Part shown: one piece after another, positions 6,030-21,816 of the stretch
Numbering within the stretch: position 1 is the first letter of the stretch
Layout: the number at the start of each line of letters is the position of its first letter
IMG/VR virus record: IMGVR_UViG_3300048032_000284
Span: 1-21,874 of that record
Source of the DNA: a virus
DNA length: 21,874 nucleotides
Reading direction: 5' to 3' (one strand)
The notes under the pieces: model-generated
What the model was told of the DNA's origin: nothing
The model's database searches: none
The model's input: the letters and a program-made list of their open reading frames with translations, nothing else
Made by a program: the position numbers and the translations under genes

Positions 6030-6465
6030 TATGAAATTTAATGCAAGGGAATTAAACCAAGACCACTACGTTCGCCGCGCTAAAGAAGAAGCTTCGCAAA
6101 TATACGCGAAGCCTGACACCCGCAGAGGTCGCAGTTTTGTCAATATACTTCAGACTACTTTGTATGGCCATGCTCCTGAAGTGTACCTTATTGATAGGTG
6201 TGGGTTCACTGACGACGAGCGTCCTTACAAGGATGTGATTGATACTGACGGAAATTACGTAGAAGTTAAGGCCACAAAAGGTGACTACTATGTTCCATAC
6301 GTTTTAAAGAGAGCGAACGAAGCAAAACAGATAACGTGGAAAAAGTATCCAGACATCCTTTACATTTTTATCGGCGATAAGAAAACAGCCGATTACGAAT
6401 TAGAAGGAGTTTATAAGTGGAATGGCACCCAATTTGTTTTACAACCTACAACAAACATAGTATAA
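6022..6465 (+). CDS. PD-(D/E)XK-like nuclease
   Basis: This 147-residue protein has a restriction-endonuclease-like core. A helix carries E53, then an acidic strand YKDVIDTDGNYVEVKA follows (about residues 69-84). This gives D71 or D74 and the E81-V-K83 pair of the PD-(D/E)XK active site, after which come KKYPDILYIFIGD and a final strand. It starts inside the end of the hydroxymethylase gene (8-base overlap); a second in-frame ATG at 6031 is possible. Tight coupling to gp42 suggests a nuclease that spares modified phage DNA and cuts unmodified DNA, functionally like T4 host-DNA degradation enzymes. That role is inference; the active-site pattern is visible. The last 28 bases carry the promoter of the next gene. 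Confidence 0.65.
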   Translation: MISMKFNARELNQDHYVRRAKEEASQIYAKPDTRRGRSFVNILQTTLYGHAPEVYLIDRCGFTDDERPYKDVIDTDGNYVEVKATKGDYYVPYVLKRANEAKQITWKKYPDILYIFIGDKKTADYELEGVYKWNGTQFVLQPTTNIV

Positions 6466-6466
6466 T
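6438..6466 (+). promoter_or_regulatory. Sigma70-like promoter TTTACA-17-TATAAT, predicted leaderless
   Basis: TTTACA (6438-6443) and TATAAT (6461-6466) lie inside the 3' end of the nuclease gene with a 17-base spacer. The ATG at 6473 follows the -10 after exactly six bases, as at 5286 and 9745. Confidence 0.8.
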
Positions 6467-6472
6467 AATAAT

Positions 6473-6829
6473 ATGAAAAGCGAAAAAGAATCTATTAAAG
6501 TCTTACAAGAATGTGCCGAGTTGCAGATTAAAAAGGGTAATGATTATCAAAATCCCAATAGTCGTATTCGTCAAGCAGATTACTATCCACGTGGTGTATC
6601 AACTATTCTTGACATTGTTCATGCTAAGGTGCTTCGTATGCAGTCAGTTATTGAAGCTATGGAGAATGATCCCAACTATGATCCAAACTTTGAATCTCTT
6701 GAAGATTCAGCAAAAGATTTGATTAATTATGGTTCGTTCATTACTTCGTATATTCGCGGTGGAATGGATGGTCAAAAGATTGATCGTGATTTTCTTAATC
6801 GTAAGATTACTTTAGACAATGCTAAATAA
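6473..6829 (+). CDS. Nmad1 / DUF1599-like protein
   Basis: This 118-residue protein has the features of the small helical family called nucleotide modification associated domain 1 (DUF1599). An N-terminal helix leads to KKGNDYQNP (about residues 20-28), then a hydrophobic/basic helix STILDIVHAKVLRM (43-56). A C-terminal helix follows with SLEDSAKDLINYGSF (about 75-89). The D-Y of KGNDY and the paired acidic residues of EDSAKDLINY are the sort of conserved polar positions expected. The family was named for its recurrence next to DNA-modification genes in phages, and that is the context here, between gp42 and dCMP deaminase. Its reaction is not established to my knowledge. The assignment is by motif and context only. 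Confidence 0.6.
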   Translation: MKSEKESIKVLQECAELQIKKGNDYQNPNSRIRQADYYPRGVSTILDIVHAKVLRMQSVIEAMENDPNYDPNFESLEDSAKDLINYGSFITSYIRGGMDGQKIDRDFLNRKITLDNAK

Positions 6830-7253
6830 ATGGCATAAACGGTATATCGAGTTAGCTCGTGATATTGCGCAATGGTCGAAAGATCCTTCAACACAATGTG
6901 GTGCAGTAGTTATTGGCGAATCAGGACAAGTGTTATCTCAGGGATATAATGGCTTTCCTCGAGGCATGGATGATAGTGATGAATTATATAAGAACCGCGA
7001 AACAAAATATGATCGCATTGTCCATGCTGAAATGAATGCAATCTATAACGCATCTCGTACTGGAGTATCTTTAGAAGGTGCAACAGCATATATCCATGGA
7101 CTTCCATGTTGTCATGAATGCGCTAAAGCAATGATTCAAGTTGGCATTAAAGAAGTTGTTATGGGAGAAGCTAGTAACATACGCTGGAACGATTCTTGTG
7201 GAAAAGGAATGGACTATCTAAATGAAGCTAATGTAAAAATAACCTATATATAA
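6819..7253 (+). CDS. cd: dCMP deaminase
   Basis: This 144-residue zinc enzyme deaminates dCMP to dUMP, feeding thymidylate synthesis and balancing the C and T pools. The active site is complete: VHAEMNAI (H69, catalytic E71) and the second zinc block GLPCCHECAK (C98 and C101 as the PCxxC-type pair). QCGAVVIG and SQGYNGFPRG are the usual N-terminal substrate-binding blocks. It is shorter than T4 Cd (193 residues), lacking an insertion. The gene overlaps the Nmad1-like gene by 11 bases and lies in the gp42 transcription unit, so deaminase and hydroxymethylase compete for the same dCMP and probably set the modified-C to T ratio. Confidence 0.93.
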   Translation: MLNKWHKRYIELARDIAQWSKDPSTQCGAVVIGESGQVLSQGYNGFPRGMDDSDELYKNRETKYDRIVHAEMNAIYNASRTGVSLEGATAYIHGLPCCHECAKAMIQVGIKEVVMGEASNIRWNDSCGKGMDYLNEANVKITYI

Positions 7254-7257
7254 TATT

Positions 7258-7551
7258 ATGGCAAAAATAAAACTAAAATACCCACCAAACGAAGTCTACT
7301 TTAAAAAGGTAATTGACTTTGATTTAGACGTTGGAGGTAAACTTCTAACAGTTCGTCTTGAAGAAGATTCAAACGAAGGACATATACACTATAAGTATGA
7401 AGATGGTTTTAGTGAAACTCCTCCAGAGTGGATCACAGAAATGGGAGAAGATGATTATGGAGATCTAATCTTTGAACAAGCATTGTTTGAAAACCTTCCG
7501 TGTATGTCAGTAGGTGAAGAAATCTATACACACGAAGACGACGAACTATAA
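7258..7551 (+). CDS. Small acidic hypothetical protein
   Basis: I do not recognise this 97-residue, strongly acidic protein. It is rich in E, D and aromatic residues (DSNEGHIHYKYEDGF; WITEMGEDDYGD; ending THEDDEL) and appears mainly beta-stranded. No catalytic motif, signal peptide or membrane segment is seen. It starts four bases after the deaminase stop in the common AATATTATG context, and its stop overlaps the next start by one base (TAATG). A charge-rich protein like this could be a DNA mimic or a partner subunit of the neighbouring modification enzymes. That is speculation based on charge and place. Confidence 0.75.
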   Translation: MAKIKLKYPPNEVYFKKVIDFDLDVGGKLLTVRLEEDSNEGHIHYKYEDGFSETPPEWITEMGEDDYGDLIFEQALFENLPCMSVGEEIYTHEDDEL

Positions 7552-8747
7552 TGGTGAATACTACTCCATACTATGATGAGTTTAAATATTACTTTAAGCT
7601 TGCTAAAGACCAACAAAACAAATCTAATTTAGGTCATATACCGCATAAAGATTCACAGCTCAATGATCCTTTAATGGAGACGATTGAGCTTTATGATGTG
7701 GTTGAACGCAAGTTTGCAGGCTTTAGCCAAATCGTAAATGATGCGTTCTATGGTTGGTCAGAAGATCATCCATATTGGTCACGTATGGATGCAGGCCTTT
7801 ATACTAAACAACGTAAAGAAGTAGCCACAAAATGGACCAATAAGCGAGATACATTTGGATTACCTGAATGGTTATATATTTTTATCTTACACCGCGTATG
7901 TGGTTCTGCTATTAATTATGGCACAAAGCCAAGTGGATACCACAATACTCTCTTGTTTGATCTATGGCAGTCAGATACAATTGAAGAAATGTGTGATCAA
8001 GTAAGATTCGCGAATAAGACATTCTATACTTCAATTGGTTATCAATTTCCTGCATTCCCTAAACCACCTAAACCAAAGGTCGAAGCTGCACCATTATTTG
8101 GAATTGAAGGTGATTATGTGTACAAGCGAGGTGGAGATTATTTCCTTTGCGAGTTTGCGCCAAGATTGGCTCGAGACCTTGCCACATTTTTGGAGACCAG
8201 CAATAAGAAACTTGATCTACGAGAAATCGGTGATTGGATGTTTGATTGGAATAAGACTAATAATCTAAGAGTCTATCGTTTTCAGTATGCAGCTATCATA
8301 GCAGATATTGCAGATTGGTTTCCTGAGTTTGTTAATACAGAATCAATGTTCTACTATGGAACGAATGCAGTCGAATGCATTGGATACTTAGCAGACACAC
8401 CAAACGGTAAGGGTAAAAAATCTGAAGAATTTTTAGATGGTGTAATGAAGTTAATTTACGAAGAAACAGGTTCAGTTCCATATAATGCTGAAGATGTTGC
8501 TTGTGACTTTATTCGATGGATTGAAAACTATGTCCGCCCTGGAGCCGATTATGCCGATGTAAATATGGATACCTTATGGAATTCATCGAGCATTAAAGAT
8601 CACCCATATGGTAGACAGAAGGCAATGCTCGATCTTGGGTTGGTAGAAACATTCAATGGAATAAAGAATCATCCATCAGACGATACTATTCTTAGACAAG
8701 CAGGAATGACAGTTGAACAATATACTGAAAAATGCAAAACACTTTAG
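7551..8747 (+). CDS. Unrecognised helical protein, candidate DNA base-modification enzyme
   Basis: This 398-residue protein is rich in W, Y, F and charged residues and is probably all-helical and soluble. Its most distinctive stretch is LPEWLYIFILHRVCGSAIN followed by YGTKPSGYHNTLLFDLW (about residues 103-140); the H-R-x-x-G-S-x-x-N and Y-H-N pattern looks catalytic or base-binding. It faintly recalls the alpha-glutamyl/putrescinyl-thymine pyrophosphorylase-like families (now linked to amino-acid:DNA transfer) predicted in phage base hypermodification, but I cannot confirm this. A proline-rich linker (FPAFPKPPKPK, about 164-174) separates an N-terminal domain from a C-terminal one with YVYKRGGDYFLCEF. 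It is translated in step with the acidic protein (TAATG) and overlaps the next gene by 16 bases, so it probably acts with the products at 8732 and 9745. Confidence 0.8.
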   Translation: MVNTTPYYDEFKYYFKLAKDQQNKSNLGHIPHKDSQLNDPLMETIELYDVVERKFAGFSQIVNDAFYGWSEDHPYWSRMDAGLYTKQRKEVATKWTNKRDTFGLPEWLYIFILHRVCGSAINYGTKPSGYHNTLLFDLWQSDTIEEMCDQVRFANKTFYTSIGYQFPAFPKPPKPKVEAAPLFGIEGDYVYKRGGDYFLCEFAPRLARDLATFLETSNKKLDLREIGDWMFDWNKTNNLRVYRFQYAAIIADIADWFPEFVNTESMFYYGTNAVECIGYLADTPNGKGKKSEEFLDGVMKLIYEETGSVPYNAEDVACDFIRWIENYVRPGADYADVNMDTLWNSSSIKDHPYGRQKAMLDLGLVETFNGIKNHPSDDTILRQAGMTVEQYTEKCKTL

Positions 8748-9709
8748 AAAACTTCATTGACGAAGATACTAGTCATAAAATCGACTATCCAAATTCATCA
8801 GATCCAATCCTTAAAAAGGGAAAACCAACGAATTGTCTATTAGAGAACTATACTCTTGAAGAACGATTTCAAAAGTTCTTTGAATTTTGTAGAGCATATG
8901 ATGTAAGAGAAGAGCCATTACTTAAAGCAAATCCACAACAATTCTCTCATCGATTGCATTGGGACGAAATGCCATACGTAGACGAGATGAAGGAGGAAAA
9001 AGATCTTAAGACTCTTTTACATCATACTATTGTATGGTCATTTAGTAATGAGCATTGGCTGACATTTAGAGCACTACGTGATCATGGTATCGAAGCCATG
9101 AAGACTCGGTTTGAAACTGAAAGGCATGCTCGCTCTGATCTTTTTCAAATCTATTATCCAAAAGGAACTATTGTACGAGATTGGTTGTGTGAAGTTCCTC
9201 AACAGATTGCTGAAGATTGTCATTCGATTCTAAAATCTGATAGGAAACTTACAATGATGGAGTTAGCATCTAAGTTGGAACGACACACTAAAGAGAAGTT
9301 TGGATTTCGCAATGTGATGTATCCGTTTAAGAATCTTTCTCGCCATATTGCTATGGCTCGTCCTGATTTGGTAGATCCAGAATCGTGGGTAACACCTGGC
9401 ACATTATCATTCTATGGCTTATGGCAACTTTTTGGAGGTAAGAATTTATTTGGCAAAACAAAGTTTGAATTAGATGAATCGTCTGGAGAATATACACCGA
9501 TCAATGATCCAGCGAAAGAGCTTGTCAGTCAATTTAATGAGGTAGCTGCACATCCAGATAATCCAATGAAACGCCAATATAATATCAATATTGAAGATAA
9601 GGCGTGTATGTGGTGTAAGCATCTATTCATTCGACATGGAATAAAAGGAACCACTAAAAAAATTCCATACGAGTGGATCTATCCAAAGTCATTCTCCCTA
9701 AAAAACTAA
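8732..9709 (+). CDS. Unrecognised protein, HhH-glycosylase-like hypermodification candidate
   Basis: This 325-residue protein begins inside the end of the previous gene (16-base overlap). It is mostly helical. The central part, FGFRNVMYPFKNLSRHIAMA then DLVDPESWVTPGTLSFYGLWQLFGG (about residues 190-235), has the shape of the helix-loop-D-x(n)-W-x(n)-G-x-G/S-x-x-GL pattern I associate with phage HhH-glycosylase-related families (5-hmdU kinase helical domain and glutamyl/putrescinyl-thymine pyrophosphorylase clades). Near the end, IEDKACMWCKHLFIRHGIKG and KKIPYEWIYP form a second strongly patterned block with C-x-x-C. Together with the preceding gene it could form a two-component enzyme acting on hydroxymethyl-pyrimidines in DNA. 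Identity of the family is inferred from memory, and no function is proven. Confidence 0.8.
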   Translation: MQNTLENFIDEDTSHKIDYPNSSDPILKKGKPTNCLLENYTLEERFQKFFEFCRAYDVREEPLLKANPQQFSHRLHWDEMPYVDEMKEEKDLKTLLHHTIVWSFSNEHWLTFRALRDHGIEAMKTRFETERHARSDLFQIYYPKGTIVRDWLCEVPQQIAEDCHSILKSDRKLTMMELASKLERHTKEKFGFRNVMYPFKNLSRHIAMARPDLVDPESWVTPGTLSFYGLWQLFGGKNLFGKTKFELDESSGEYTPINDPAKELVSQFNEVAAHPDNPMKRQYNINIEDKACMWCKHLFIRHGIKGTTKKIPYEWIYPKSFSLKN

Positions 9710-9738
9710 TGTACAATATAGGCTAAATATGGTATAAT
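9710..9738 (+). promoter_or_regulatory. Sigma70-like promoter TGTACA-17-TATAAT, predicted leaderless
   Basis: TGTACA (9710-9715), a 17-base spacer ending ATATGG and TATAAT (9733-9738) lie immediately after the upstream stop codon, which ends one base before the -35. The ATG of the PLP-enzyme gene (9745) is exactly six bases after the -10, predicting a leaderless message. Confidence 0.8.
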
Positions 9739-9744
9739 ATAATT

Positions 9745-10641
9745 ATGTCACACGATAATCACGTAATAGATAACTGCAATAAGGATATCGACTACCTACT
9801 TTTTAGTGGAGTATCTAATCGGCATGAAGCTCGAGAGTACTATCTAAACTTAGCAGGAGATTGGGAAGATCCTAATCCAAAACCAGTCGTTAAGATCCAT
9901 GAGGGTGTAAGAGTTGTTCGAGACGACCTCTTAGTTGGTAGTAAGGTTCGAGGCGGTGATTGTCTTATTTCGAACATTAAAGAAAAGACTCTCGTATATG
10001 TTCAACCTCGTACTGGATTGGCTGGAGTATCTCTCTTAGATGTCGCATCGCGTCATAACAAGAAGGTAAGGTTATTCATGCCATCTTCGAAGCGCATCTC
10101 ACATCATCAGGCATGCTGCATTGAGCGCGGGGCAGATTATGAATTTCACCGCATTGCTGCTATGCCTAATCTAAATGCAATCGCTAAGAAGTGGGCAGAT
10201 GAACAAGATGATGCATTCTTTATTCCTCTTGGCCTTAAACACGAACTTGTTACTGCGGGATTTGTTAAGGCTGCATCACAAATTCCAGAACCAGAAGAAG
10301 TGTGGACAGTTATTTCAACAGGCGTATTGCATCGTGCTTTACAGATTGCTTGGCCTAATGCTAAGTTCCACTGTGTTGCAGTATCTCGTAACATGAAAGA
10401 TGGTGAGATTGGCCATGATAGTATCATATCACACCCCTTACCATTTACTACTCCAATTAAGGAAGATTTGCCTCCATTCCCATCTGTAGCAACATACGAC
10501 GCGAAAGCTTGGGCATCGATTCCTAAAAACACTGATCGCGACATTTTATTTTGGAATGTTGGGCAAAACCCAACTCTTGAAGATGAATCAATATACGACA
10601 AAATAAACTCATATAGAAAGTGGAAGAAAGATGAAAAATAA
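9745..10641 (+). CDS. Fold-type-II PLP-dependent enzyme
   Basis: This 298-residue protein has the layout of the tryptophan-synthase-beta / ACC-deaminase-like PLP fold. VVRDDLLVGSKVRGGDCL (about residues 57-74) contains K67, the likely Schiff-base lysine. YVQPRTGLAGVSLLDVASRH (85-104) is the substrate-loop helix, KKVRLFMPSS and ERGADYEF form the next Rossmann-like unit, and STGVLHRALQIAWPNA (191-206) is the phosphate-binding loop region. The C-terminal PPFPSVATYDAKAWASI and DILFWNVG match a subfamily recalled from bacteria and phages. Such enzymes eliminate or exchange groups on amino acids, or decarboxylate and tailor amino-acid adducts. Known thymidine-hypermodifying phages also carry PLP enzymes for this. 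It has its own leaderless promoter and overlaps the SGNH-like gene by 11 bases. Confidence 0.75.
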   Translation: MSHDNHVIDNCNKDIDYLLFSGVSNRHEAREYYLNLAGDWEDPNPKPVVKIHEGVRVVRDDLLVGSKVRGGDCLISNIKEKTLVYVQPRTGLAGVSLLDVASRHNKKVRLFMPSSKRISHHQACCIERGADYEFHRIAAMPNLNAIAKKWADEQDDAFFIPLGLKHELVTAGFVKAASQIPEPEEVWTVISTGVLHRALQIAWPNAKFHCVAVSRNMKDGEIGHDSIISHPLPFTTPIKEDLPPFPSVATYDAKAWASIPKNTDRDILFWNVGQNPTLEDESIYDKINSYRKWKKDEK

Positions 10642-11665
10642 AGTACTATTAACAGGCTTAGGACCAATCTCGAATAAGATCGCTTCGCATAAAGCAGCGC
10701 AAGCTATTATATATGCTGATCAAATTAGTGAAGCTGGAAATAACGTTGAAATTAATTTGGTGTCAAATAAGATTACTGATTACTCAGAATATCATTCTCT
10801 TGCATTCTATCATGGAAGCGATTGGAGTGGAAACTTAAATCTATTTGGTGGAATACAGGCATACAAAAATAGAGAGTTCCTCGTTGCACTTTCTCGATTC
10901 AAAGGACCAGTTAATTCATTGATGGTCGATTTCCCCGATTATGCAGGAATGTTCCAAGATAGATTACAAAAGGCTGCCTGGAAATGGGACGATGTCGATT
11001 GGGAAGGACTCAAGGCTTTACAATATCGAGCAGTTACAATTGATCCAAATAAAATAAAAAGATATAACCGTATATCGATAGGTGATAGTCATGCCATTTG
11101 CATGTATCGTCCTCGTTGGGAAAATGTATCTCGACCATTTTCTACATTGCATGGATCAATTAATAAAGGCTTTGAAACGTTTATCCCTGTAGGTTCAGAG
11201 TATGATATTATTGAAACATATTTTGGAAACATTGATATTCGACATCATCTGTGTCGATTTGACGATCCAATCTTTGAAGCTAAAAAATTAGCTGATCGAT
11301 ATGCTGCAGAATTAGAACGAATCTCTCGTAAATATCAAGCTAAGACACTTGCTTATGAACCTCTGCCTATCGAGTGTGAATCTCGTAAGGTTCCTAAAAC
11401 TGGATGGTATAAAGGAACACCGTTCTTCGGGTCATGGAAAGAGCGCACCGAAGTACGCGAAGCATTTATTTCTCAGTTGCAATTAAACGCGAATGTTTAT
11501 ACGTGGACAGAATCACTTAAAAACCAGGCTGGGCAGCTCAGCTTTGATGTAATGGAAAAACCGCAATCAGTGCACCTTTCTCGAGCATCATATCCGCATT
11601 GGCAAGGTAAAGAATGGACCGAGCCAGCCGATTTGTCTGGTAATTTAGATATATTCTTTGCATAG
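10631..11665 (+). CDS. SGNH/GDSL-hydrolase-like protein
   Basis: In this 344-residue protein the middle and end carry SGNH-family blocks. ISIGDSHAI (149-156) is block I, with the nucleophile S153 in GDSH. YFGNIDIRHHLC (197-208) resembles the G-x-N-D / E-I-D-x-R block III, and SVHLSRASYPHW (313-324) could supply the His of block V. SGNH enzymes hydrolyse or transfer acyl groups. The first 140 residues form a separate domain beginning KVLLTGLGPIS, of unknown type. The C-terminal part between blocks (GTPFFGSWKERTEVREAF) is long for the family. The start is preceded by GGAAGAAAG, a rare purine-rich ribosome-site-like stretch. Overlap with the PLP-enzyme gene implies a shared pathway, perhaps acyl or amino-acid transfer in base hypermodification. 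Confidence 0.6.
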   Translation: MKNKVLLTGLGPISNKIASHKAAQAIIYADQISEAGNNVEINLVSNKITDYSEYHSLAFYHGSDWSGNLNLFGGIQAYKNREFLVALSRFKGPVNSLMVDFPDYAGMFQDRLQKAAWKWDDVDWEGLKALQYRAVTIDPNKIKRYNRISIGDSHAICMYRPRWENVSRPFSTLHGSINKGFETFIPVGSEYDIIETYFGNIDIRHHLCRFDDPIFEAKKLADRYAAELERISRKYQAKTLAYEPLPIECESRKVPKTGWYKGTPFFGSWKERTEVREAFISQLQLNANVYTWTESLKNQAGQLSFDVMEKPQSVHLSRASYPHWQGKEWTEPADLSGNLDIFFA

Positions 11666-13098: not shown

Positions 13099-14416
13099 TG
13101 AGACGTTCCTCAGAAAGGCCCTTCCACATATTAAGAAGGAATATTTTGAGGATCATCATAAAGCAGTCTATGATTTATTCTTGCAGTTCGTAACTAAATA
13201 CAATAAGTTGCCAACTCCAGCTATTCTTGAAATCGAGTTTCAGGAATCAGAATACACTAATCGTCCTATTGCAAATGATACTCTCGCTCTAATCAAAACT
13301 CTTCATGAAGAAAATAAGGTTGAGTTAGAGTGGTTAATCGAATCGACAGAGAAGTGGTGTAAAGATAGAGCAGTATATCTTGCACTAATGGAATCGATAT
13401 CGATTGTTGATGGTAATACCGACAAGGCCGAGGGAGCAATTCCCGATATCTTGACAAAGGCCTTGTCGGTCACGTTTGACACAAATGTTGGGCATGATTA
13501 CTTTGAAAACACTGAAGAACGATATGAGTTTTATCACCAAAAGGAAGATAAAATTCCATTTAATATTGAACTTCTTAATACAATCACTAAAGGTGGTGTA
13601 CCAAAGAAATCTCTTAATATCATATTAGCTGGTACAGGTGTGGGTAAGAGTTTGGCAATGTGCCATTTTGCTGCAGATGCTCTTACTCAAGGGAAAAATG
13701 TGTTATACATTACACTTGAAATGGCTGAAGAAAAAATTGCTGAACGTATCGATGCTAATCTATTTGATGTAGATATTGCTACTCTTACAGATCTAAGTAA
13801 AGATGCCTTCATTAATAAGGCACACCTCGTTAATCAAAAGACACATGGTAAGTTAATCATTAAAGAATATCCTACAGCAGTTGCTCACGTTGGCCATTTC
13901 CGCTCGCTTTTAAATGAGTTGAAGATGAAAAAGAAGTTTGTTCCAGATGTCATTTACATTGATTACCTTAACATCTGCTCAAGCTCAAGAATCAAGGGGT
14001 TGGGTGGATCTATCAATACGTATTCCATGATTAAAGCAATTGCTGAAGAGATTCGTGGTCTTGCTGTTGAATATAATGTACCTATTTGGTCTGCCACTCA
14101 AGTTACTCGTACAGGATTTGGTAATTCTGATGTTGAGATTACTGATACGTCAGAATCGTTTGGTCTTCCAGCCACAGCTGACTTAATGATTGCTCTTATT
14201 TCGACAGAACAATTAGAAGGTATGAATCAAGTAATGATTAAACAATTGAAGAATAGATATAATGATCCCACAGAAAACAAACGATTCTGTGTAGGCATCG
14301 ATAGATCTAAGATGCGATTGTTCGATGTAGAAGATTCCGCACAGACATTATCAAGTGGCGATACAACTGCTCCTGCTCCAGAAAAAACGACAGATTTCTC
14401 AGCATTTAAAATCTAA
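13049..14416 (+). CDS. 41: Replicative DNA helicase gp41 (DnaB-like)
   Basis: This 455-residue protein (T4 gp41: 475) is the hexameric 5'-3' helicase of the replication fork. An N-terminal helical domain (IILKSLTNNETFLRKALPHI) precedes a RecA-like motor with Walker A GTGVGKS (195-201) and LYITLEMAEEKIAERI. Walker B lies in PDVIYIDYLNI, the sensor region in PIWSATQVTRTGFG, and IKQLKNRYND resembles the arginine-finger/DNA loop region. The start at 13049 (or 13055, MQDIQ) overlaps the previous gene by about 50 bases; no later ATG would keep the N-terminal domain. The stop overlaps the next start (TAATG). A 12-bp inverted repeat lies inside at 13418-13470. Confidence 0.95.
   Translation: MVMQDIQTIILKSLTNNETFLRKALPHIKKEYFEDHHKAVYDLFLQFVTKYNKLPTPAILEIEFQESEYTNRPIANDTLALIKTLHEENKVELEWLIESTEKWCKDRAVYLALMESISIVDGNTDKAEGAIPDILTKALSVTFDTNVGHDYFENTEERYEFYHQKEDKIPFNIELLNTITKGGVPKKSLNIILAGTGVGKSLAMCHFAADALTQGKNVLYITLEMAEEKIAERIDANLFDVDIATLTDLSKDAFINKAHLVNQKTHGKLIIKEYPTAVAHVGHFRSLLNELKMKKKFVPDVIYIDYLNICSSSRIKGLGGSINTYSMIKAIAEEIRGLAVEYNVPIWSATQVTRTGFGNSDVEITDTSESFGLPATADLMIALISTEQLEGMNQVMIKQLKNRYNDPTENKRFCVGIDRSKMRLFDVEDSAQTLSSGDTTAPAPEKTTDFSAFKI
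13418..13470. repeat. Perfect 12-bp inverted repeat inside gp41 gene
   Basis: ACCGACAAGGCC (13418-13429) is exactly complementary to GGCCTTGTCGGT (13459-13470), with a 29-base loop that itself contains a short GGGA/TCCC pairing. The arms are far more GC-rich than the surroundings. In RNA this would form a stable stem inside the coding region of the helicase, in the linker before the motor domain (around residues 124-140). Confidence 0.6.
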
Positions 14417-14886
14417 TGGTTGTATCGGTCACAGGCTCGAGTAAGTCCAAGAGGGAGATGGCAGAAGACATTGCGCATTTCTCTCTTGGTATTTTGGCTC
14501 CTAGATTAGGCGCTAAATTAGAGATAGATATAGTATTAATCAATAATTTGCGGAACAAAGAAGGTATAGCTGGAGATTGCACATGGGAAGATAGGTCTTA
14601 TCGTCCTCGTGAGTTTACAATACGAATTGATTCTTCGCAATCAAAACAGGAATTGCTTGAAACCATTGCGCATGAGATGGTACATGTAAAGCAGTTTGCT
14701 AGAGGAGAGTTAAAGGATACTAATTCATTACATATTAGTAAATGGAATGATAAAGAAGTTGATGATATAAAAACTAATTATTATGATCTGCCATGGGAGA
14801 TTGAAGCCCACGGTCGAGAACGCGGTATATTTATACGATGGTTTGAACAAAGTCAATGGAAAAAATGTAAGTGGGCTGATTATTAA
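14416..14886 (+). CDS. SprT-like HExxH zinc metalloprotease candidate
   Basis: This 156-residue protein contains IAHEMVHVKQFARGELKD (about residues 87-104), a canonical HExxH zinc site preceded by a helix. A later LPWEIEAHGRE (about 127-137) has acidic residues well placed as third ligand. The N-terminal half is a beta/alpha scaffold (IDIVLINNL, FTIRIDSSQ). This arrangement resembles small SprT- or WLM-like minimal metalloproteases, the family linked to DNA-protein crosslink repair, but the specific family is uncertain. It starts in a TAATG overlap with gp41, so it is expressed with the replication genes rather than the late block. A function at the fork (clearing protein adducts) or as a small host-targeted protease would both fit. 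Confidence 0.7.
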   Translation: MVVSVTGSSKSKREMAEDIAHFSLGILAPRLGAKLEIDIVLINNLRNKEGIAGDCTWEDRSYRPREFTIRIDSSQSKQELLETIAHEMVHVKQFARGELKDTNSLHISKWNDKEVDDIKTNYYDLPWEIEAHGRERGIFIRWFEQSQWKKCKWADY

Positions 14887-14898
14887 AGTGTAATATAT

Positions 14899-14906
14899 TA
14901 TAAATA
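14899..14906 (+). promoter_or_regulatory. T4-type late promoter TATAAATA
   Basis: An exact TATAAATA lies in the 42-base gap after the metalloprotease gene, about 23 bases before the next ATG. This is the gp55-recognised late -10 of T4-like phages and marks the switch from replication genes to virion genes. Confidence 0.8.
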
Positions 14907-14928: not shown

Positions 14929-15249
14929 ATGGGAACTATGCTAAATTTTAAAGATTCTCTTCAATTCGAAGAGACCGAATATAAGGGTAAAAAGGTTACT
15001 CTTAATAAGCCTTTTCGTGGAAACGATGGTAAGAAAAAGTTCTATGTCTATGTAAAGAACGAAAAGGGCAATGTCATTAGATTAGGATTTGGAGATCCTA
15101 ATATGGAAATTAAGCGTGATGATCCAGCTCGCCGTAAGAGTTTTAGAGCTCGTCATCAGTGCGATACTGACCCAGGTCCTAAATACAAAGCACGTTATTG
15201 GTCATGTAAATTTTGGGCAAAAGGTAAATCAGTTACTGACTTGACGTAA
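14929..15249 (+). CDS. Conserved late phage protein with FGDPNMEI / ARYWSC motif
   Basis: This 106-residue basic protein carries a block I recall from many tailed phages: YVYVKNEKGNVIRLGFGDPN, then RRKSFRARHQC (about residues 64-74) and KARYWSCKFW (about 87-96), with two conserved Cys. It is generally annotated as unknown or head-associated. The N-terminus (MLNFKDSLQFEE if the second ATG at 14938 is used, which I favour for its likeness to the other leaders in this block) resembles a capsid-targeting peptide but lacks an exact L/I-x-E. It is the first gene after the late promoter at 14899 and is followed by the next gene with one base between, so it is co-expressed with the virion cluster. 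Confidence 0.75.
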   Translation: MGTMLNFKDSLQFEETEYKGKKVTLNKPFRGNDGKKKFYVYVKNEKGNVIRLGFGDPNMEIKRDDPARRKSFRARHQCDTDPGPKYKARYWSCKFWAKGKSVTDLT

Positions 15250-15250
15250 A

Positions 15251-16891
15251 ATGGCATTATTTGGAAAGGCAGATCTATCAAAATCAAAATATATCGTAGC
15301 GATTGTTGCGAAGATAAACGTTGGTGATAAGATAAAAATGTCTAATGGCAAGTCTTATAAATTAAAAAAGACAAAAGATATTATTGCTTTAGAAAAGGTA
15401 CAAACTGATTTTGCAAAATACAAACAGATTCTATATCCTAATGGTCAATTCGCTGCAGTTTTTACTGACGCAAAAGTAAATTTAAGTTTAAAACCAGATG
15501 ATATCCTTGATTCGTATGGTACTATTGAACTTAGATATCGTAGCTTCTCTGCTATTCGTGAAGCTGAAAAGGAATTGGCAAAAGTAGGAATCGAATCGAA
15601 CATAAGTACTCGTGGTCGCGATATTCTTGAAGTTGACACAAATTCATCTGCGTTTAGGAAGGCTAATATTACTTCATCCTTTACTACAGATAAAAGAAAA
15701 GAGGCAGTAATGGATGCTCTCGACGGAAGCTTATCATTTAGATTTAACGATATCGATAAAGCTCCATTTTCTGGCATGGGAGGTGGATCACGTAATGCTT
15801 TAGGTAAACAGCTTGCAGATGCAGGAGAACTTGCTACGGTGATGTCTTTAATCAAAGATGTTAAAACACCAAAAGATACTGGACAAAAAATATTCATTGA
15901 TAATCCAGATGCGTTTATAGCGTGGAACCAAACATTTCAATCGACTAAACCAGCAGTTGTTAAGATTGCGGGTAATCTTAATCGTTTTGATATATTGCAT
16001 GATGCAACTGATAAGTCTGCATTCGCTACTGTAATCAGTGCATTTACAAAGAAGGTAAAAATTGCAAAAGATTCGTGGAATCCAGCCGACATCTTTCTTA
16101 TTGATAAAAACAAGAAAACACAAATAATTAAAGATCTGCAATTCTGTATTGACAATTACGAAGTTAAGGATGGACTAACTTCTATGTTTAATAACAAGAT
16201 GTATGATTATTATAAAAAAAAGCAACTATATCCTATATCTCTTAAGCAATTGGTCAGCGATAAACCATCTGTAGATTTTGCAAACGAACCAGGTAAAGCC
16301 AAGAAAGCTGCATATAATATTCAAATTGCCAAGTTTAATTGCAACTTAAGCGCTGAAGGAAAGGAAATTGGTTTATTTACATTTAAGAATGTTGATACAT
16401 CAAAGCAAATTAGCCTACAAGTAAGAGGATTTCCTCATGGATATGGCACGGCTCAAACTGAAATTACATCTGATGGCACACCTTCTGGAGGTCGTTTAGG
16501 TAAAATTAGTACCGGAATTGTTGATCGAGTAATGGAAGAGTTCGATGACGAGCGAATTAAAAGTATTACATATTTTGGTAAAACACCAGAAGTATTTGGC
16601 GAGTTTGATGAAAAACGAATTAGCGAAGTTTATAGTATGTATCAAACGGTATCTAAACATTCAAAAGTTCAAGACGGAAATAAATTAACAAAAGCTCAGT
16701 TTGAGGCGTTAGTCGGAGACGCACAAAGAAATATGGATATCGCATCTAATCTTTGTATGAAAATACAGGGACTAAAAATGATGCATTTCTTTGTTACTAA
16801 CGAAAAGAATATTTCTACAATTATGAATAAGATGATTAATGGAGCGAAGAAGATCAGCGATGATAATGGATTTTTTATTAAAATTTACTAA
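15251..16891 (+). CDS. Large late protein of unknown function, SWNPADIF motif
   Basis: I do not recognise this 546-residue protein with confidence. It lies between two genes with capsid-targeting-like leaders but starts MALFGKADLSKSKY, without such a leader. Visible landmarks are a conserved-looking SWNPADIFLID (275-285), a stretch RGFPHGYGTAQTEITSDG (about 394-411) rich in G and T, GGRLGKIS, and a helical C-terminus ending GFFIKIY. Predicted character is mixed alpha/beta, soluble, Lys-rich, with no membrane segment. W-N-P-A-D motifs occur in phage proteins of unresolved function. As a member of the late transcript it is probably a virion or internal head protein. An enzyme is possible, but no catalytic triad is evident. 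Confidence 0.85.
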   Translation: MALFGKADLSKSKYIVAIVAKINVGDKIKMSNGKSYKLKKTKDIIALEKVQTDFAKYKQILYPNGQFAAVFTDAKVNLSLKPDDILDSYGTIELRYRSFSAIREAEKELAKVGIESNISTRGRDILEVDTNSSAFRKANITSSFTTDKRKEAVMDALDGSLSFRFNDIDKAPFSGMGGGSRNALGKQLADAGELATVMSLIKDVKTPKDTGQKIFIDNPDAFIAWNQTFQSTKPAVVKIAGNLNRFDILHDATDKSAFATVISAFTKKVKIAKDSWNPADIFLIDKNKKTQIIKDLQFCIDNYEVKDGLTSMFNNKMYDYYKKKQLYPISLKQLVSDKPSVDFANEPGKAKKAAYNIQIAKFNCNLSAEGKEIGLFTFKNVDTSKQISLQVRGFPHGYGTAQTEITSDGTPSGGRLGKISTGIVDRVMEEFDDERIKSITYFGKTPEVFGEFDEKRISEVYSMYQTVSKHSKVQDGNKLTKAQFEALVGDAQRNMDIASNLCMKIQGLKMMHFFVTNEKNISTIMNKMINGAKKISDDNGFFIKIY

Positions 16892-16897
16892 ACTAAC

Positions 16898-17194
16898 ATG
16901 AAAACATTTAAAGAACACACAATCGAAGAAGAACAAGAACTCGAAGAAGGTTATGCAATCGATCTAACACCTTGGCAATTTTCACATCGAGGACAACAAC
17001 CTAAGGGTGAAGGAACATGGGCATTCGATTATAAAGCAACTTTAGATTCTGGTGGAATGATTGGAATGCAACAAGATACATTCTTTTCAAAAGCAAGGTC
17101 AACATATAAAAACGCTGTTAAACAATTGACTAAATTCCTAAAGAAAGATTTGAAGGTAAAACCAAAACAAGTTGAAATTAAATTAGCGCCATAA
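16898..17194 (+). CDS. Small protein with capsid-targeting-like N-terminus
   Basis: This 98-residue protein begins MKTFKEHTIEEEQELEEGY. The first residues match the T4 internal-protein targeting peptide (MKTYQEFIAE), and there are two candidate gp21-type cleavage sites, I-E-E and L-E-E. The mature body (about 80 residues) is WQFSHRGQQPKGEGTWAFDY followed by a basic helix and strand (SKARSTYKNAVKQLTKFLKKDLKVKPKQVEIKL). The likely mature protein is basic and small, like T4 internal proteins IPI-III that are injected with DNA and protect it from host nucleases. Its stop overlaps the next start (TAATG). Its function is unknown. Confidence 0.75.
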   Translation: MKTFKEHTIEEEQELEEGYAIDLTPWQFSHRGQQPKGEGTWAFDYKATLDSGGMIGMQQDTFFSKARSTYKNAVKQLTKFLKKDLKVKPKQVEIKLAP

Positions 17195-17937
17195 TGATAC
17201 CATTTAAAGACTACTTATACGAATCAGCTAAGTCGGATCAATACGAAATCGATGTAGCTAATCACATTAATACATTAGGAGATAACTTAAAGGCTGAACG
17301 TCCTAAGGTTTCTGCTAAATACGCTGATGTTAGAATAGAGCGTAATGGTAATAGTACTTGGTTAGAAGTTAAGATGAATCATACTGATAATCTATCTAAT
17401 CCAAGAGTATTCTTCGATGGTAAAAAATGGGATACAACGTATAACACACCATCGGCTAAGTTGGCAATTAATAAATTAAATAAGTCAAAAGAAGCTGCAG
17501 AGTTTCTAAAGGCAATTGCTAAATTTTCAGGAATTAATAATCCTAAAATTCCAACTACTAAGAGCGGTCTTAAAGACTCAAATGCTGTACCCTTACAGGT
17601 AATGAAAGACTTCTTTGCTCAACCTGGCATTAATAGGTATATCATGTCAGAGCCAAATATCAATTTAGGCAAAGTTGTAACAGATCATTATTTGAAAGGT
17701 AAAGCAGAGCCAGCTCATTATATGCAGGCTGCAGATGATTTTTATATGATCGGAACACGTAATCCTTTGAATGTACCTAAGAATGTACCGATACTCAGCG
17801 GTGTTGGTCCGTTTAAGATAAGAGTTGCTACAAGATCGCAGTTTTACGAAGTGCAAGCAGAAATTAAGATTAGTGAAATGCCTTCTTCCCGTTATTCAAT
17901 AAAACCCGGTAGTTCTAAGAGAAACCCATTCGCATGA
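17194..17937 (+). CDS. PD-(D/E)XK-like nuclease with capsid-targeting leader
   Basis: This 247-residue protein begins MIPFKDYLYESAK, a targeting-peptide-like leader with an exact L-Y-E cleavage site after residue 10. The following part has a restriction-endonuclease-like core: helix QYEIDVANHIN, then SAKYADVRIERNGNSTWLEVKMN (about residues 40-62), with D45 and the E58-V-K60 pair spaced as in PD-(D/E)XK enzymes. The long C-terminal half (MQAADDFYMIG, GPFKIRVATRS, YEVQAEIKI) is unassigned and may bind DNA or target. It couples translationally with both neighbours (TAATG before, ATGA after). A nuclease packed in the head would reach the host with the first DNA. Whether it acts in the host or on packaged DNA ends is unknown. 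Confidence 0.7.
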   Translation: MIPFKDYLYESAKSDQYEIDVANHINTLGDNLKAERPKVSAKYADVRIERNGNSTWLEVKMNHTDNLSNPRVFFDGKKWDTTYNTPSAKLAINKLNKSKEAAEFLKAIAKFSGINNPKIPTTKSGLKDSNAVPLQVMKDFFAQPGINRYIMSEPNINLGKVVTDHYLKGKAEPAHYMQAADDFYMIGTRNPLNVPKNVPILSGVGPFKIRVATRSQFYEVQAEIKISEMPSSRYSIKPGSSKRNPFA

Positions 17938-19169
17938 TCAAGTTTAAACAATTTATAGCCGAAGCGGCATCGAATAAAAATACACACATGACACATCTGG
18001 AGGATCGCGTTATTTATGGTGGTGTCAAAGGTGCAAGAGAAGCCATCTTTGCTTTAAGAGCAATGCGTGATATGCTAGCAGGTAATAGTAATAAGAATTA
18101 TGACGTTACTGTTAAATGGGACGGTGCACCTGCAGTTTTCGCTGGCACCGATCCTAGCGATGGTCAATTCTTTGTTGCTAAAAAAGGCATTTTCAATAAA
18201 GACCCTAAGGTCTATAAATCAGAAGCCGATGTTCGTGCAGATACATCTGGAGATCTTGCCGATAAGTTGTCAATTGCATTTAATGAGTTGAAGGATTTGG
18301 ATATTACTGATGTCATTCAAGGTGATATTATGTTTACTAAAAAGGATGTTCAGACCGAGACGATTGATGGTGAAAAGTATTACACATTCCAACCAAATAC
18401 GATTGTATATGCAGTTCCAGTAAACTCGAAGATGGGTAAAGAGATTAAGAAGGCTAATCTTGGTGTAGTGTGGCATACCACTTATAAAGGTAATGACTTT
18501 CCTTCAATGCGTGCATCATTTGGCGTCAATATCACTGGTCTTAAGAAGAAGTCTTCAGTGTGGTATCAATCAGCTGAATATCGTGACATCACTGGTAAAG
18601 CAACTCTATCAGCTACTGAGACTGCTAAAGTTACTGCTGCTCTATCTAAGGCAGGCAAGATCTTTAGTAAAATCGCGGGCAATACACTTCGTGAGTTAGA
18701 GAATAATACAAAGCTAGCACAATCAATTGAAACCTTTAATAATTCGTTAGTTCGTAGAGGAGAGAGAATCGAAAATACAACTAAACACGTTAATAACTTG
18801 ATTGCTTGGTTCGCTAATAAGTTTAATAAAGAGCGTGATAAGAGAAAGACTGAAAAGGGTAAGGCTAATGTCACTAAGAAAGAAGAAGAGTTGATGAAAT
18901 TCTTCTCTAAGGGGAATAAAGATAATCTAAAACAAATATTTGATCTTCAAAACGCATTGGTTGATGCAAAGCTGCTTATTATAAATAAACTAGATAAGGT
19001 TAAGCAACTGGACACATTTGTTCGCACTAAGACTGGTTTTAAAGTAACTAATTCAGAAGGATTTGTTGCCATTGATAAGACTACCGATGGTGCGGTTAAA
19101 CTAGTTGATAGACTAGAGTTTTCAATGAACAATTTCAGCAAAGACGTAATAAAAGGATGGGAGAAATAA
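17934..19169 (+). CDS. Ligase-like nucleotidyltransferase with capsid-targeting leader
   Basis: This 411-residue protein begins MIKFKQFIAEAAS, almost the T4 targeting peptide (MKTYQEFIAE|AAS) with the I-A-E cleavage site. The body has covalent nucleotidyltransferase (ATP-dependent DNA/RNA ligase) motifs: motif I VKWDGAPA with the presumed AMP-accepting K61, FVAKKG (80-85), VIQGDIMF (127-134, motif III-like), VYAVP (159-163), SEGFVAI (374-380, motif IV) and VKLVDR (388-393, motif V with K389). A long helical, lysine-rich insertion (about 220-350) between motifs III and IV is unusual. Related phage proteins I recall are annotated only as unknown (DUF6267-like). I infer an RNA or DNA ligase delivered with the genome. 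A capping- or modification-type transferase is an alternative. Confidence 0.75.
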   Translation: MIKFKQFIAEAASNKNTHMTHLEDRVIYGGVKGAREAIFALRAMRDMLAGNSNKNYDVTVKWDGAPAVFAGTDPSDGQFFVAKKGIFNKDPKVYKSEADVRADTSGDLADKLSIAFNELKDLDITDVIQGDIMFTKKDVQTETIDGEKYYTFQPNTIVYAVPVNSKMGKEIKKANLGVVWHTTYKGNDFPSMRASFGVNITGLKKKSSVWYQSAEYRDITGKATLSATETAKVTAALSKAGKIFSKIAGNTLRELENNTKLAQSIETFNNSLVRRGERIENTTKHVNNLIAWFANKFNKERDKRKTEKGKANVTKKEEELMKFFSKGNKDNLKQIFDLQNALVDAKLLIINKLDKVKQLDTFVRTKTGFKVTNSEGFVAIDKTTDGAVKLVDRLEFSMNNFSKDVIKGWEK

Positions 19170-19233
19170 CACTACTAGCATTATTAAAAAGAAATATCTA
19201 GTAGCAGAGTCATTAGACAAGTTGTCATAATTG

Positions 19234-19241
19234 TATAAATA
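19234..19241 (+). promoter_or_regulatory. T4-type late promoter TATAAATA
   Basis: An exact TATAAATA lies in the 97-base gap after the ligase-like gene, 33 bases before the ATG at 19267. The gap also holds a 7-bp inverted repeat, CTACTAG/CTAGTAG (left arm near 19174, right arm near 19198), and the short palindrome GACAAGTTGTC (19216-19226). Confidence 0.8.
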
Positions 19242-19266
19242 TATGTATAATCAACTTCTTAAAAAA

Positions 19267-19461
19267 ATGAAACCAGAAAATAGCAACATGAATAAATTAC
19301 CAGAGAAAGTTTTAAACTTTAAAGATTTCTTAGTAGTAGACTATACCCAACAAGCTGGTACTGACATCGATCCAGATGGGATCCTTGCTTATAAAAATAA
19401 TAAAAGAAAGAAACTACACGCAGGCGGCGGACCAAGTGAATCAACCACAAAGAAGAAATAG
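19267..19461 (+). CDS. Small late protein with LNFKDF leader-like motif
   Basis: The open frame reaches back to 19231, but the late promoter at 19234 would start the RNA near 19247. The ATG at 19267 (64 residues), or the one at 19288 (57 residues, MNKLPEKVLNFKDF), must therefore be the start. VLNFKDFLVV resembles the leader of the gene at 14929 (MLNFKDSLQF), though no L/I-x-E site follows. The middle is acidic (GTDIDPDG) and the end strongly basic (NNKRKKLHAGGG...TTKKK). It ends one base before the next gene. It may be a scaffold, core or internal head peptide; its function is unknown. Confidence 0.6.
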   Translation: MKPENSNMNKLPEKVLNFKDFLVVDYTQQAGTDIDPDGILAYKNNKRKKLHAGGGPSESTTKKK

Positions 19462-19462
19462 T

Positions 19463-21775
19463 ATGTTAGTAAAAGGATTCAAACAGTTTAACGAAGAAAG
19501 GGTCAAATCAGTAACATTTACATTTGGCCGATTTAATCCTCCCACAGTTGGCCATGGAAAGCTTCTTGATAAAGTTGCGTCTTTATCGACTGGCAATGAC
19601 TATAAGGTATTTGCCTCTAAGTCAAACGATGCTAAAAAGAATCCATTGGAATATTCTGAAAAAATTAAGATAATGCGTAAGATGTTTCCTAAGCATGGAA
19701 GAAACATTGTTAATGATAAGAGTGCTTCAATACTACACGCAGCATCATCGTTATACTCTCAAGGTTATACTAAAGCAAAACTTGTAGTTGGCTCTGACCG
19801 TATCAAAGAAATGAGCTCGCTCCTTAATAAGTATAATGGAGTTAAGTCGAAACATGGATTTTATGATTTCGAAGGAGGTATCGAAGTTGTATCTGCTGGA
19901 GACCGTGATCCAGATGCAGATGACGTTTCAGGAATGTCTGCCTCTAAAATGAGAGCAGCTGCAGTATCTGGTGATTTCCAAGCATTTTCTAACGGTCTTC
20001 CAAAATCATTTGGTGATAAGCTATCAGTATTCAACCTTCTTCGTAAAAGAATGGGATTGAAAGAAATGGTTAACTTTCGTAAACACGTACAGCTTCCAAC
20101 AGTTTCAGAAAAACGAGAAAGGTTTATCTCTGGTGAAATCTTCAATGTTGGAGATAGAGTTCAGTGCCAAAAGTCGAATCAAAACTTTACCATATCTGAG
20201 CGTTATTCGAATTATGTAGTGAGCGCTATCGGTACTAAGTATTTTATTAATGATCTTGAGGAATATTCTGAAGAAACCGTGAATCCAAAATATCATGCTG
20301 GTTTGTCAAAGTCAACTAAGGCTAAACGAAAAGCACAGTTTAAAAAGCAAGCCAAAATGGATGATGATAATCCAGCTGCTTATAAACCAGCACCGGGTGA
20401 TGCAAGAGCAGAAACGAAACCGTCCAAATATACCAAAAGATTTAAGGATATGTTTGGCGAAGAATATATTGAAGAAGGCGTTGATGATCCTGCAATCTTT
20501 AAAGCAATCTTTCTTGCTGGTGGCCCAGGTTCAGGTAAATCATTTACTGTTGGTAAAACTGGTCTAACTGCGCTTGGATTTAAAATTGTTAATTCGGATG
20601 ATAAGTTTGAGGCTGCTATGAAGAAAGCTAATCTTGAGCCAACTCCAGATAACATCTTTTCTCCTAAAGGTCAGAAACTTAGAAGCAAAGCAAAGGAACT
20701 AACTGCAAAGCAGCAAGAACTTTATCTTAATGGTAGACTTGGCTTAGTCGTTGATGGTACTGGTAAAGATTATGATAAGATTAAAAAGCAATCTGAATTG
20801 CTTAAGAAGTTGGGATATGATGTAGCAATGATCTTTGTTAATACTGATCTTGAGACAGCACAAGTTCGTAATAGAATGCGTCCACGGAGCCTTCCAAATG
20901 ATCAAGTGGCTAAAATGTGGCAAGGAGTTCAGAATAATCTCGGTAAATTCCAATCAATGTTTGGATCTAACTTCGTAATTGTTGATAACTCTGAAGGTTC
21001 TAACATTGAGAAAGCAACAATATCAGCCTATAAAAAAATGGCTAAGTTTGCTAAAGAAGCTCCTAAGAATAACATTGCAAGAGGTTGGATTAAGAAACAG
21101 CTTGGAGAAGAAACTGAAATATTGATCTCTGAAAATAAAAAGGGAATTCAAAATAAAGCTAAAGCTACTGGTATTTCATATTCGATTCTAAAGAAGGTAT
21201 TCGACCGCGGAGTTGCAGCTTGGAGAACGGGTCATCGTCCTGGAACTACTCCATCCCAATGGGGATTCGCTCGAATTAATTCATTCGCCACTGGCGGCAA
21301 GACTAGAACAACTGCTGATAAAGATCTTTGGGCTCAACATAAAGGAAAGAAAGAGTCTATTGAAGAATCAAAAGATTTTGAGCCGCATTGGATGTATGAT
21401 CCTGAAACAGGAGAAAAAGAATGGGCAAAAGTTAAAGCTGATCATGATAGATTAAATAAAAAAGGTTGGTCCCATGAGCCAAACGAAGCTTTAGATTATG
21501 GTACTCCTGAGACAACAAAGAACTTTAAAAGAAATACTCCTGGTCAAAAGATAGAGGAAGGCGAAGGTAAGTATAAAGGAGAAACTTGGGAACAAGGATA
21601 CAAAAGACGAGTAGTCAAAACCTCTGATCCAGACCACGTCGAAAAGGGTTATAAATGGCGTATAAAGGGCAAAGAACGTCCTGAAATTTCTATTAAGCTA
21701 TATAAGGAAAAGCCGAGCTTTAAGGAATATAGTAAGCAAATGGAACGAGTAGCAGGTCATGAATTTGGAAAATAG
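19463..21775 (+). CDS. Multidomain cytidylyltransferase-like / P-loop kinase virion protein
   Basis: This 770-residue protein starts at MLVKGFKQFNEE; an upstream frame extension overlaps the previous gene and is rejected. Modules seen: (a) residues 15-200, a nucleotidyltransferase of the NMN/cytidylyl family with GRFNPPTVGH (22-31, an HxGH variant), VVGSDR (108-113) and VSGMSASKMR (155-164); (b) 225-270, a small beta domain, NVGDRVQC...VSAIGTKYFI; (c) 343-530, a P-loop kinase with GPGSGKS (354-360), NSDDKF, VVDGTG (429-434) and RNRMRPRSLP (469-478); (d) 560-625, DRGVAAWRTGHRPGTTPSQW, a block known from marine phage proteins of unknown role; (e) 705-770, a basic tail. Linkers carry L/I-x-E sites. 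It could be an NadR-like NAD enzyme or an RNA/DNA end-repair kinase. Confidence 0.8.
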   Translation: MLVKGFKQFNEERVKSVTFTFGRFNPPTVGHGKLLDKVASLSTGNDYKVFASKSNDAKKNPLEYSEKIKIMRKMFPKHGRNIVNDKSASILHAASSLYSQGYTKAKLVVGSDRIKEMSSLLNKYNGVKSKHGFYDFEGGIEVVSAGDRDPDADDVSGMSASKMRAAAVSGDFQAFSNGLPKSFGDKLSVFNLLRKRMGLKEMVNFRKHVQLPTVSEKRERFISGEIFNVGDRVQCQKSNQNFTISERYSNYVVSAIGTKYFINDLEEYSEETVNPKYHAGLSKSTKAKRKAQFKKQAKMDDDNPAAYKPAPGDARAETKPSKYTKRFKDMFGEEYIEEGVDDPAIFKAIFLAGGPGSGKSFTVGKTGLTALGFKIVNSDDKFEAAMKKANLEPTPDNIFSPKGQKLRSKAKELTAKQQELYLNGRLGLVVDGTGKDYDKIKKQSELLKKLGYDVAMIFVNTDLETAQVRNRMRPRSLPNDQVAKMWQGVQNNLGKFQSMFGSNFVIVDNSEGSNIEKATISAYKKMAKFAKEAPKNNIARGWIKKQLGEETEILISENKKGIQNKAKATGISYSILKKVFDRGVAAWRTGHRPGTTPSQWGFARINSFATGGKTRTTADKDLWAQHKGKKESIEESKDFEPHWMYDPETGEKEWAKVKADHDRLNKKGWSHEPNEALDYGTPETTKNFKRNTPGQKIEEGEGKYKGETWEQGYKRRVVKTSDPDHVEKGYKWRIKGKERPEISIKLYKEKPSFKEYSKQMERVAGHEFGK

Positions 21776-21810
21776 TATGATTATACTACAAATGAAATAG
21801 TATAATCATA
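21776..21810. repeat. 13-bp perfect inverted repeat, possible hairpin
   Basis: TATGATTATACTA (21776-21788) is exactly complementary to TAGTATAATCATA (21798-21810), with the 9-base loop CAAATGAAA. It begins at the base after the stop codon of the multidomain gene, and its right arm runs into the late promoter. There is no T-run after it, so it may mark or stabilise the 3' end, or act on the promoter. Confidence 0.65.
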
Positions 21811-21816
21811 TAAATA
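21809..21816 (+). promoter_or_regulatory. T4-type late promoter TATAAATA
   Basis: An exact TATAAATA overlaps the last two bases of the hairpin. It would start a late transcript for the gene entering at the window's right edge. Confidence 0.8.

Follow-up and report, generated by a model that had tools for sequence, protein, structure and literature searches.

Predicted capsid-targeting leaders of the T4 internal-protein type on unrelated enzymes and a five-module fused protein in a T4-like phage

A cluster of late genes in a T4-like phage fragment encodes proteins whose N-terminal decapeptides we read as capsid-targeting sequences of the T4 internal-protein type. The fragment analysed here, hereafter the window, is the complete 21,874-base IMG/VR virus record IMGVR_UViG_3300048032_000284. 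Late in infection the leaders would dock their cargo onto the prohead core, a gp21-type prohead protease would cut after [LI]xE and remove the leader, and the mature cargo would remain in the head and go into the next cell with the DNA. The tagged cargo appears to include a ligase-like DUF6267 protein, a polynucleotide-kinase-like P-loop domain, an NMNAT-like nucleotidyltransferase and a putative nuclease. Five modules are fused in one chain, and the same protease would probably cut them into individual proteins within the prohead. Taken together, capsid targeting, gp21 trimming, module release and injection make up a reading that we consider highly probable.

The mechanism is known from the T4 internal proteins and Alt; the scale, the enzyme cargo and the fusions are new. 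As in T4 IPI-IPIII, the leader is of 10 residues with aromatics at 4 and 7, L/I at 8 and E at 10, the genes are late, and a gp21-type protease is present, here in related genomes; unlike IPI-IPIII, the cargo includes large enzymes and fused multi-module proteins and spans many more families, and its cleavage is predicted. T4 also packs an enzyme into its head, the ADP-ribosyltransferase Alt, which gp21 trims at [LI]xE sites (PMC5694885), whereas the cargo here consists of unrelated enzymes with an IP-type leader, and sites also lie at module borders inside the chain. The ejection proteins of phiKZ and SPN3US, too, reside in the head and are processed by a prohead protease before ejection, but with other cleavage motifs and longer propeptides; for them we have seen no report of one short leader shared by unrelated cargo. 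In the mainly open-access full-text literature, the only paper to speak of both a capsid targeting sequence and cyanophages is a T4 review, so within that literature the leader in this clade seems undescribed.

Leaders and late setting of the gene cluster

The strict motif, M-x(1,4)-[FY]xx[FYHW][ILVM]xE, was defined on T4 data: an aromatic residue at roughly positions 4 and 7, one of L/I/V/M at 8 and E at 10. In the window it fits MIPFKDYLYE and MIKFKQFIAE, and a looser motif fits MKTFKEHTIEE (Table 1). The first-pass annotation had named these three as T4-type leaders; the ORFs and N-termini are as it described, and the naming is borne out by an enrichment at the protein starts of Phage C48C1 (Kyanoviridae, 156 kb), the nearest annotated genome, whose DUF6267 protein is 55% identical to that of the window. 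In that complete genome 6 of 206 proteins begin with the strict motif against 0.12 expected from internal positions, with a maximum of 3 in 2000 shuffles, which rules out a chance origin of the leaders. Applied to T4, the motif finds IPII and IPIII. The UvsW start MKDYSHFMVE, among the six matches in C48C1, is probably a chance hit. The C48C1 cytidylyltransferase (L002 14448) probably starts at GTG 63448 (MIKNFSQYLLEEE), and the annotated ATG at 63514 removes its leader. By megablast, the window had no match in the phage collection.

Table 1. Features of the leader cluster in the window (a slash marks the predicted cut)
Feature	Position	Strand	Remarks
TATAAATA, T4-type late promoter box	14899..14906	+	octamer also precedes C48C1 structural genes
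103-aa protein, phrog_7595	14938..15249	+	degenerate leader MLNFKDSLQFEE; conserved body EYKGKKVTLN
546-aa phrog_1462 protein	15251..16891	+	leader absent here; some relatives have one
98-aa leader-tagged protein	16898..17194	+	leader MKTFKEHTIEE at 16898-16930
247-aa putative PD-(D/E)XK nuclease	17194..17937	+	leader MIPFKDYLYE at 17194-17223; body SAKSD...
411-aa DUF6267 protein, RNA/DNA-ligase-like fold	17934..19169	+	leader MIKFKQFIAE at 17934-17963
TATAAATA, T4-type late promoter box	19234..19241	+	sequence match
small ORF MNKLPEKVLNFKDFLVVDYT...	19288..19461	+	targeting-like stretch without cleavage Glu
770-aa fused cargo protein	19463..21775	+	leader MLVKGFKQFNEE at 19463-19498; five modules A-E
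module A: cytidylyltransferase/NMNAT-like + linker domain	19499..20464	+	
predicted prohead-protease site IEE/G, A/B border	20468..20476	+	E338
module B: P-loop kinase, Zeta/AAA_33/polynucleotide-kinase-like	20477..21100	+	standalone tagged in L175
predicted site ISE/N, B/C border	21125..21133	+	E557
module C: DUF5824	21134..21346	+	standalone leader-tagged in C48C1, G002, about 15 loci
predicted site IEE/S, C/D border	21359..21367	+	E635
module D: PHWMYDPETG domain	21368..21532	+	standalone leader-tagged in L028, L038, L039
predicted site IEE/G, D/E border	21551..21559	+	E699
module E: ETWEQGYKRRVVKT domain, C-terminal	21560..21772	+	standalone leader-tagged in L127, G002
TATAAATA, T4-type late promoter box	21809..21816	+	sequence match

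Three further N-termini had been listed as looser versions of the leader; they were found, in degenerate form. The phrog_7595 gene has a possible alternative start at 14929 that adds MGT, and its homologues carry an [LIVMF]xE site just ahead of the conserved body in 18/18 distinct cases. Relatives of the small ORF at 19288 likewise lack the glutamate. In the leader of the fused protein, Asn stands where L/I is expected, at a position needed for cutting; the canonical counterparts are MIKNFSQYLLEEE in C48C1 and MKNFSSFLTEA in S-CREM2. The three products may be targeted yet poorly cut at the leader site.

DNA polymerase, UvsX and a gp41-type helicase are encoded upstream of the cluster. The octamer TATAAATA occurs 6 times in the window against 2.9 expected, which is not significant by itself, so the lateness of these genes rests on its distribution in C48C1: 22 copies lie on the plus strand and 3 on the minus strand, mostly before structural genes and also before four genes of the equivalent cluster. 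Together with the three plus-strand boxes of Table 1, this supports the earlier description of the genes as late. Directly before the cluster, at 14416-14886, the window and its relatives encode a SprT-like/DUF6782 metallopeptidase-like protein with a HEMVH motif. PADLOC returned weak matches only, which were left unused.

The fused protein and its border sites

All four module borders of the 770-residue protein carry [LI]xE, the B/C border also at E549. In relatives, module A is the leading module behind the leader, whereas B, C, D and E are each found as standalone tagged proteins: MLPFKSFIEEG/KNDPAIF, MKSFNNFIKED/ATSTALKKKAEK, MLNFKQYIAEA/ADFKPHWMYDP and MKTFSQYISEA/ESWEVGYERRVVKT, respectively. 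The relatives combine these modules as A, AB, ABC, ABE, ADE, ACE, ABCE and ABCDE, and one of them, G002, holds A, E and C as three neighbouring separate leader-tagged genes. An [LIVMF]xE site precedes module B in 24/24 distinct contexts, C in 15/15, E in 12/12 and D in 17/23, against a background of 0.31 per 24 residues, the counted sequences being related and the counts not independent. As read from the sequences, a five-module fusion whose borders all carry an [LI]xE site is new here, and the fused protein found no match in a PDB sequence search. In another relative, an 851-aa fusion (L096 5373-7925) has an additional RimK-like ATP-grasp domain, preceded by the internal leader-like stretch SFSQFTEKFEE.

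In the model of the fused protein, confidence falls below 50 at residues 1-11, 332-344, 628-638 and 673-714. Because three of the four sites (E338, E635 and E699) lie in such stretches, and E557 in a predicted helix instead of a clear linker, release of the modules by gp21 is likely rather than proven. The leading alternative, to which we give roughly one chance in four, is that the proteins are packaged via the leader but the fusion stays whole, the border [LI]xE sites being leftovers of old leaders. Joining separate leader-tagged genes would leave just such remnants, and both the adjacent separate genes of G002 and the internal leader-like segment retained in L096 fit such a history; on the other hand, the border sites are conserved over many fusion architectures while the linker around them varies, and T4 gp21 is known to cut one substrate repeatedly (PMC5694885). 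Separate release is the reading that we prefer, and we call it probable because each module border has its [LI]xE site. This suggests a polyprotein strategy in tailed phages, with processing inside the prohead.

Virion proteins of relatives and the prohead protease

For S-CREM2, the published virion list gives 52 proteins with their coordinates (PMC10665884). Translation of all 219 S-CREM2 genes yields exactly three strict leaders, all three in that list (Fisher p 0.013): a SAM hydrolase (MKDFDSFLEE), an APH-like kinase (MKRFDAFLTEE) and the cytidylyltransferase (MKNFSSFLTEA). Under a relaxed motif these are joined by gp13 and gp136, which are in the same list, and by gp30 and gp175, which are absent from it; LRFASFMAEA stands near the start of a Cas9-like virion protein, at about residues 17-26. 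The virion cytidylyltransferase of S-SZBM1 (leader MRFRQFIIEA) and the virion NMNAT of S-SCSM1 (MKSFLQFLKEA) are tagged as well, and S-SCSM1_90, the phrog_1462 homologue of the window protein at 15251, is annotated as a virion protein. Two strict-motif genes of S-SZBM1 and one of S-SCSM1 do not appear in these virion data, nor does the S-SZBM1 DUF6267 protein, which has no leader. Pooled over the three phages, 5/8 strict-motif genes were detected (p 0.006). Virions of S-SM1 also contained a cytidylyltransferase (PMC3037559).

That these detections merely reflect particle preparations contaminated by abundant soluble enzymes is very improbable. The S-CREM2 authors themselves named contamination as something they could not exclude, and the available part of their report mentions no leader (PMC10665884). 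However, all three strict-leader genes of S-CREM2 were detected while replication enzymes do not figure in its list, and the same enzyme family recurs in several virion studies. The cyanophage virion enzymes (S-CREM2, S-SCSM1) share with our cargo the cytidylyltransferase family and the kind of leader, which was found here, and differ in that the passages available mention no leader and contamination was left as a possibility. Packaging via the leader would explain why such enzymes recur in cyanophage virion proteomes.

Identification of gp21 had been proposed as a check in the first-pass annotation. The gp21 family is present in C48C1, HTVC008M and 4/5 longer relatives; within the 21.9-kb window, gp21 and the capsid genes are absent. 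Several prohead proteases have a leader-like stretch, [FW]xxF[LM], at the C-terminus (REFKNFLSLLK, SAFHEFLQSL, AAFEKFMRK; genes at L001 14633-15292 and L008 16489-17136 and in G001, G002 and HTVC008M), which is perhaps the protease's own core-docking signal. The virion protein S-SCSM1_93 (L010 10508-10717) also has a leader-like C-terminus, RTFKEFLEYIE, which suggests C-terminal targeting.

A portable leader and its cargo

About 150 related loci came from two scans of viral contigs. One of the patterns in the first DUF6267 scan was taken from the leader, so the unbiased count is that of the second, leader-blind scan: 39/70 DUF6267 loci have a strict leader, and most of the others a near variant (e.g. 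MKSLKGYLSE or MNLKQHIAE). Among 41 aligned DUF6267 proteins, F4 is found in 36, Y/F7 in 33, L/I8 in 39 and E10 in 40, with F/L as alternatives at 4 and Y/F/H at 7, and positions 2, 3, 6 and 9 are variable. According to suppressor genetics in T4, targeting depends on residues 4 and 7 and processing on residues 8 and 10 (PMC9026906). The leader occurs on at least 23 cargo families, whose bodies have no mutual blastp match at 1e-3 and range from small basic proteins like the T4 internal proteins to proteins of at least 500 residues; Lys stands at position 5 in 16/23 of these families, which the motif does not demand. All strict-motif genes of two 142-147 kb relatives fall in one cluster each. The claim that the cargo consists of enzymes, and not only of small basic proteins, was right, and small basic tagged proteins coexist in the same clusters (e.g. 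L063 15851 and C48C1 63080).

Homologues of the protein at 17194 exist both with the leader (e.g. MKKFKSYISE/SAKSD and MRTFKEYLTE/SAKSD) and without. In 16/35 distinct junctions the leaderless form starts M/SAASD or similar, with the Met exactly at the predicted cut, and the hybrids MRTFKGYLVE/MSAAD and MKTFKGYLIE/MSPAD still carry the former start Met after the leader. These junctions are most simply read as a leader placed before a pre-existing gene. Judged by its distribution over sequences, the leader is a portable module set on many unrelated proteins in this clade. The capsid-targeting interpretation of the first-pass annotation draws support from position-specific conservation, from the add-on leader, from the gp21 genes of relatives and from published mass spectrometry that places homologues in virions.

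Instead, the shared N-terminus might bring the enzymes to a different assembly, such as the replisome or an RNA-processing complex, without involvement of the head. The cluster does adjoin the gp41 helicase and its cargo belongs to nucleic-acid metabolism, but the late-promoter context, the homologues in virions, the coincidence of the key leader positions with the T4 targeting positions and the leaderless forms that begin exactly behind the predicted cut make this very improbable. It is scarcely believable that the leaders, similar as they are in length and spacing, are alike merely through a shared ancestral N-terminal domain, given 23 body families without mutual match and leaderless homologues that start at the junction. 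If they are capsid-targeting sequences, a simple sequence rule would predict which unknown proteins of abundant marine T4-like phages ride in the head and get injected, and new natural leaders and protease sites would be at hand for loading enzymes into phage heads.

T4 gene 61.1 (NC_000866.4 18966-19130, minus strand, L271), annotated as a hypothetical protein of 54 aa, starts with a near-perfect leader, MKTFKEFIKED, and sits in the gp41-gp61 interval, a neighbourhood shared with the window cluster; its product may be an unrecognised internal protein.

The DUF6267 protein looks RNA-ligase-like in its model. Motif I (KxDG, K61-x-D63-G64), E375-G376 (EGxV) and K389 (K motif) are invariant in 41 sequences. 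Foldseek gave no significant match (E >0.3), and in a second-look alignment the best 32 rows were all RNA/DNA ligases (Z up to 8.2, rmsd 3.7, 185 residues); leader residues 1-13 have confidence below 50 and the fold begins behind them. The protein at 17194 has no Pfam, PHROG or PDB sequence match and shows a nuclease-like pattern, AD45V...WLE58VK60, conserved by eye in one aligned pair. Module B matches small-molecule and polynucleotide kinases and resembles a polynucleotide kinase, and module A matches nicotinate-nucleotide adenylyltransferase and NadR in a model of modest confidence as a whole.

T4 itself has a kinase and ligase pair, Pnkp and Rnl1. By this likeness, our preferred guess is that the injected cargo would serve, most likely at once in the new host, as a kit for nucleic-acid repair or counter-defence that is backed by NAD and nucleotide functions. 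To the fuller proposal, in which tagged cargo genes are freely fused to polyproteins that the prohead protease would cut into a ligase, a polynucleotide-type kinase, a nuclease and an NAD-related nucleotidyltransferase for the first moment of infection, we give an even chance. A leader-tagged HAD-like protein (L038 930-1532) has a weak, below-cut-off match to the HAD domain of 'Swiss Army Knife' RNA repair proteins. Elsewhere in the window, at 5286-11665, genes for a thymidylate synthase and a dCMP deaminase are grouped with one for a weakly PLP-enzyme-like protein and with several unassigned ORFs; the group may be a DNA base modification cluster.
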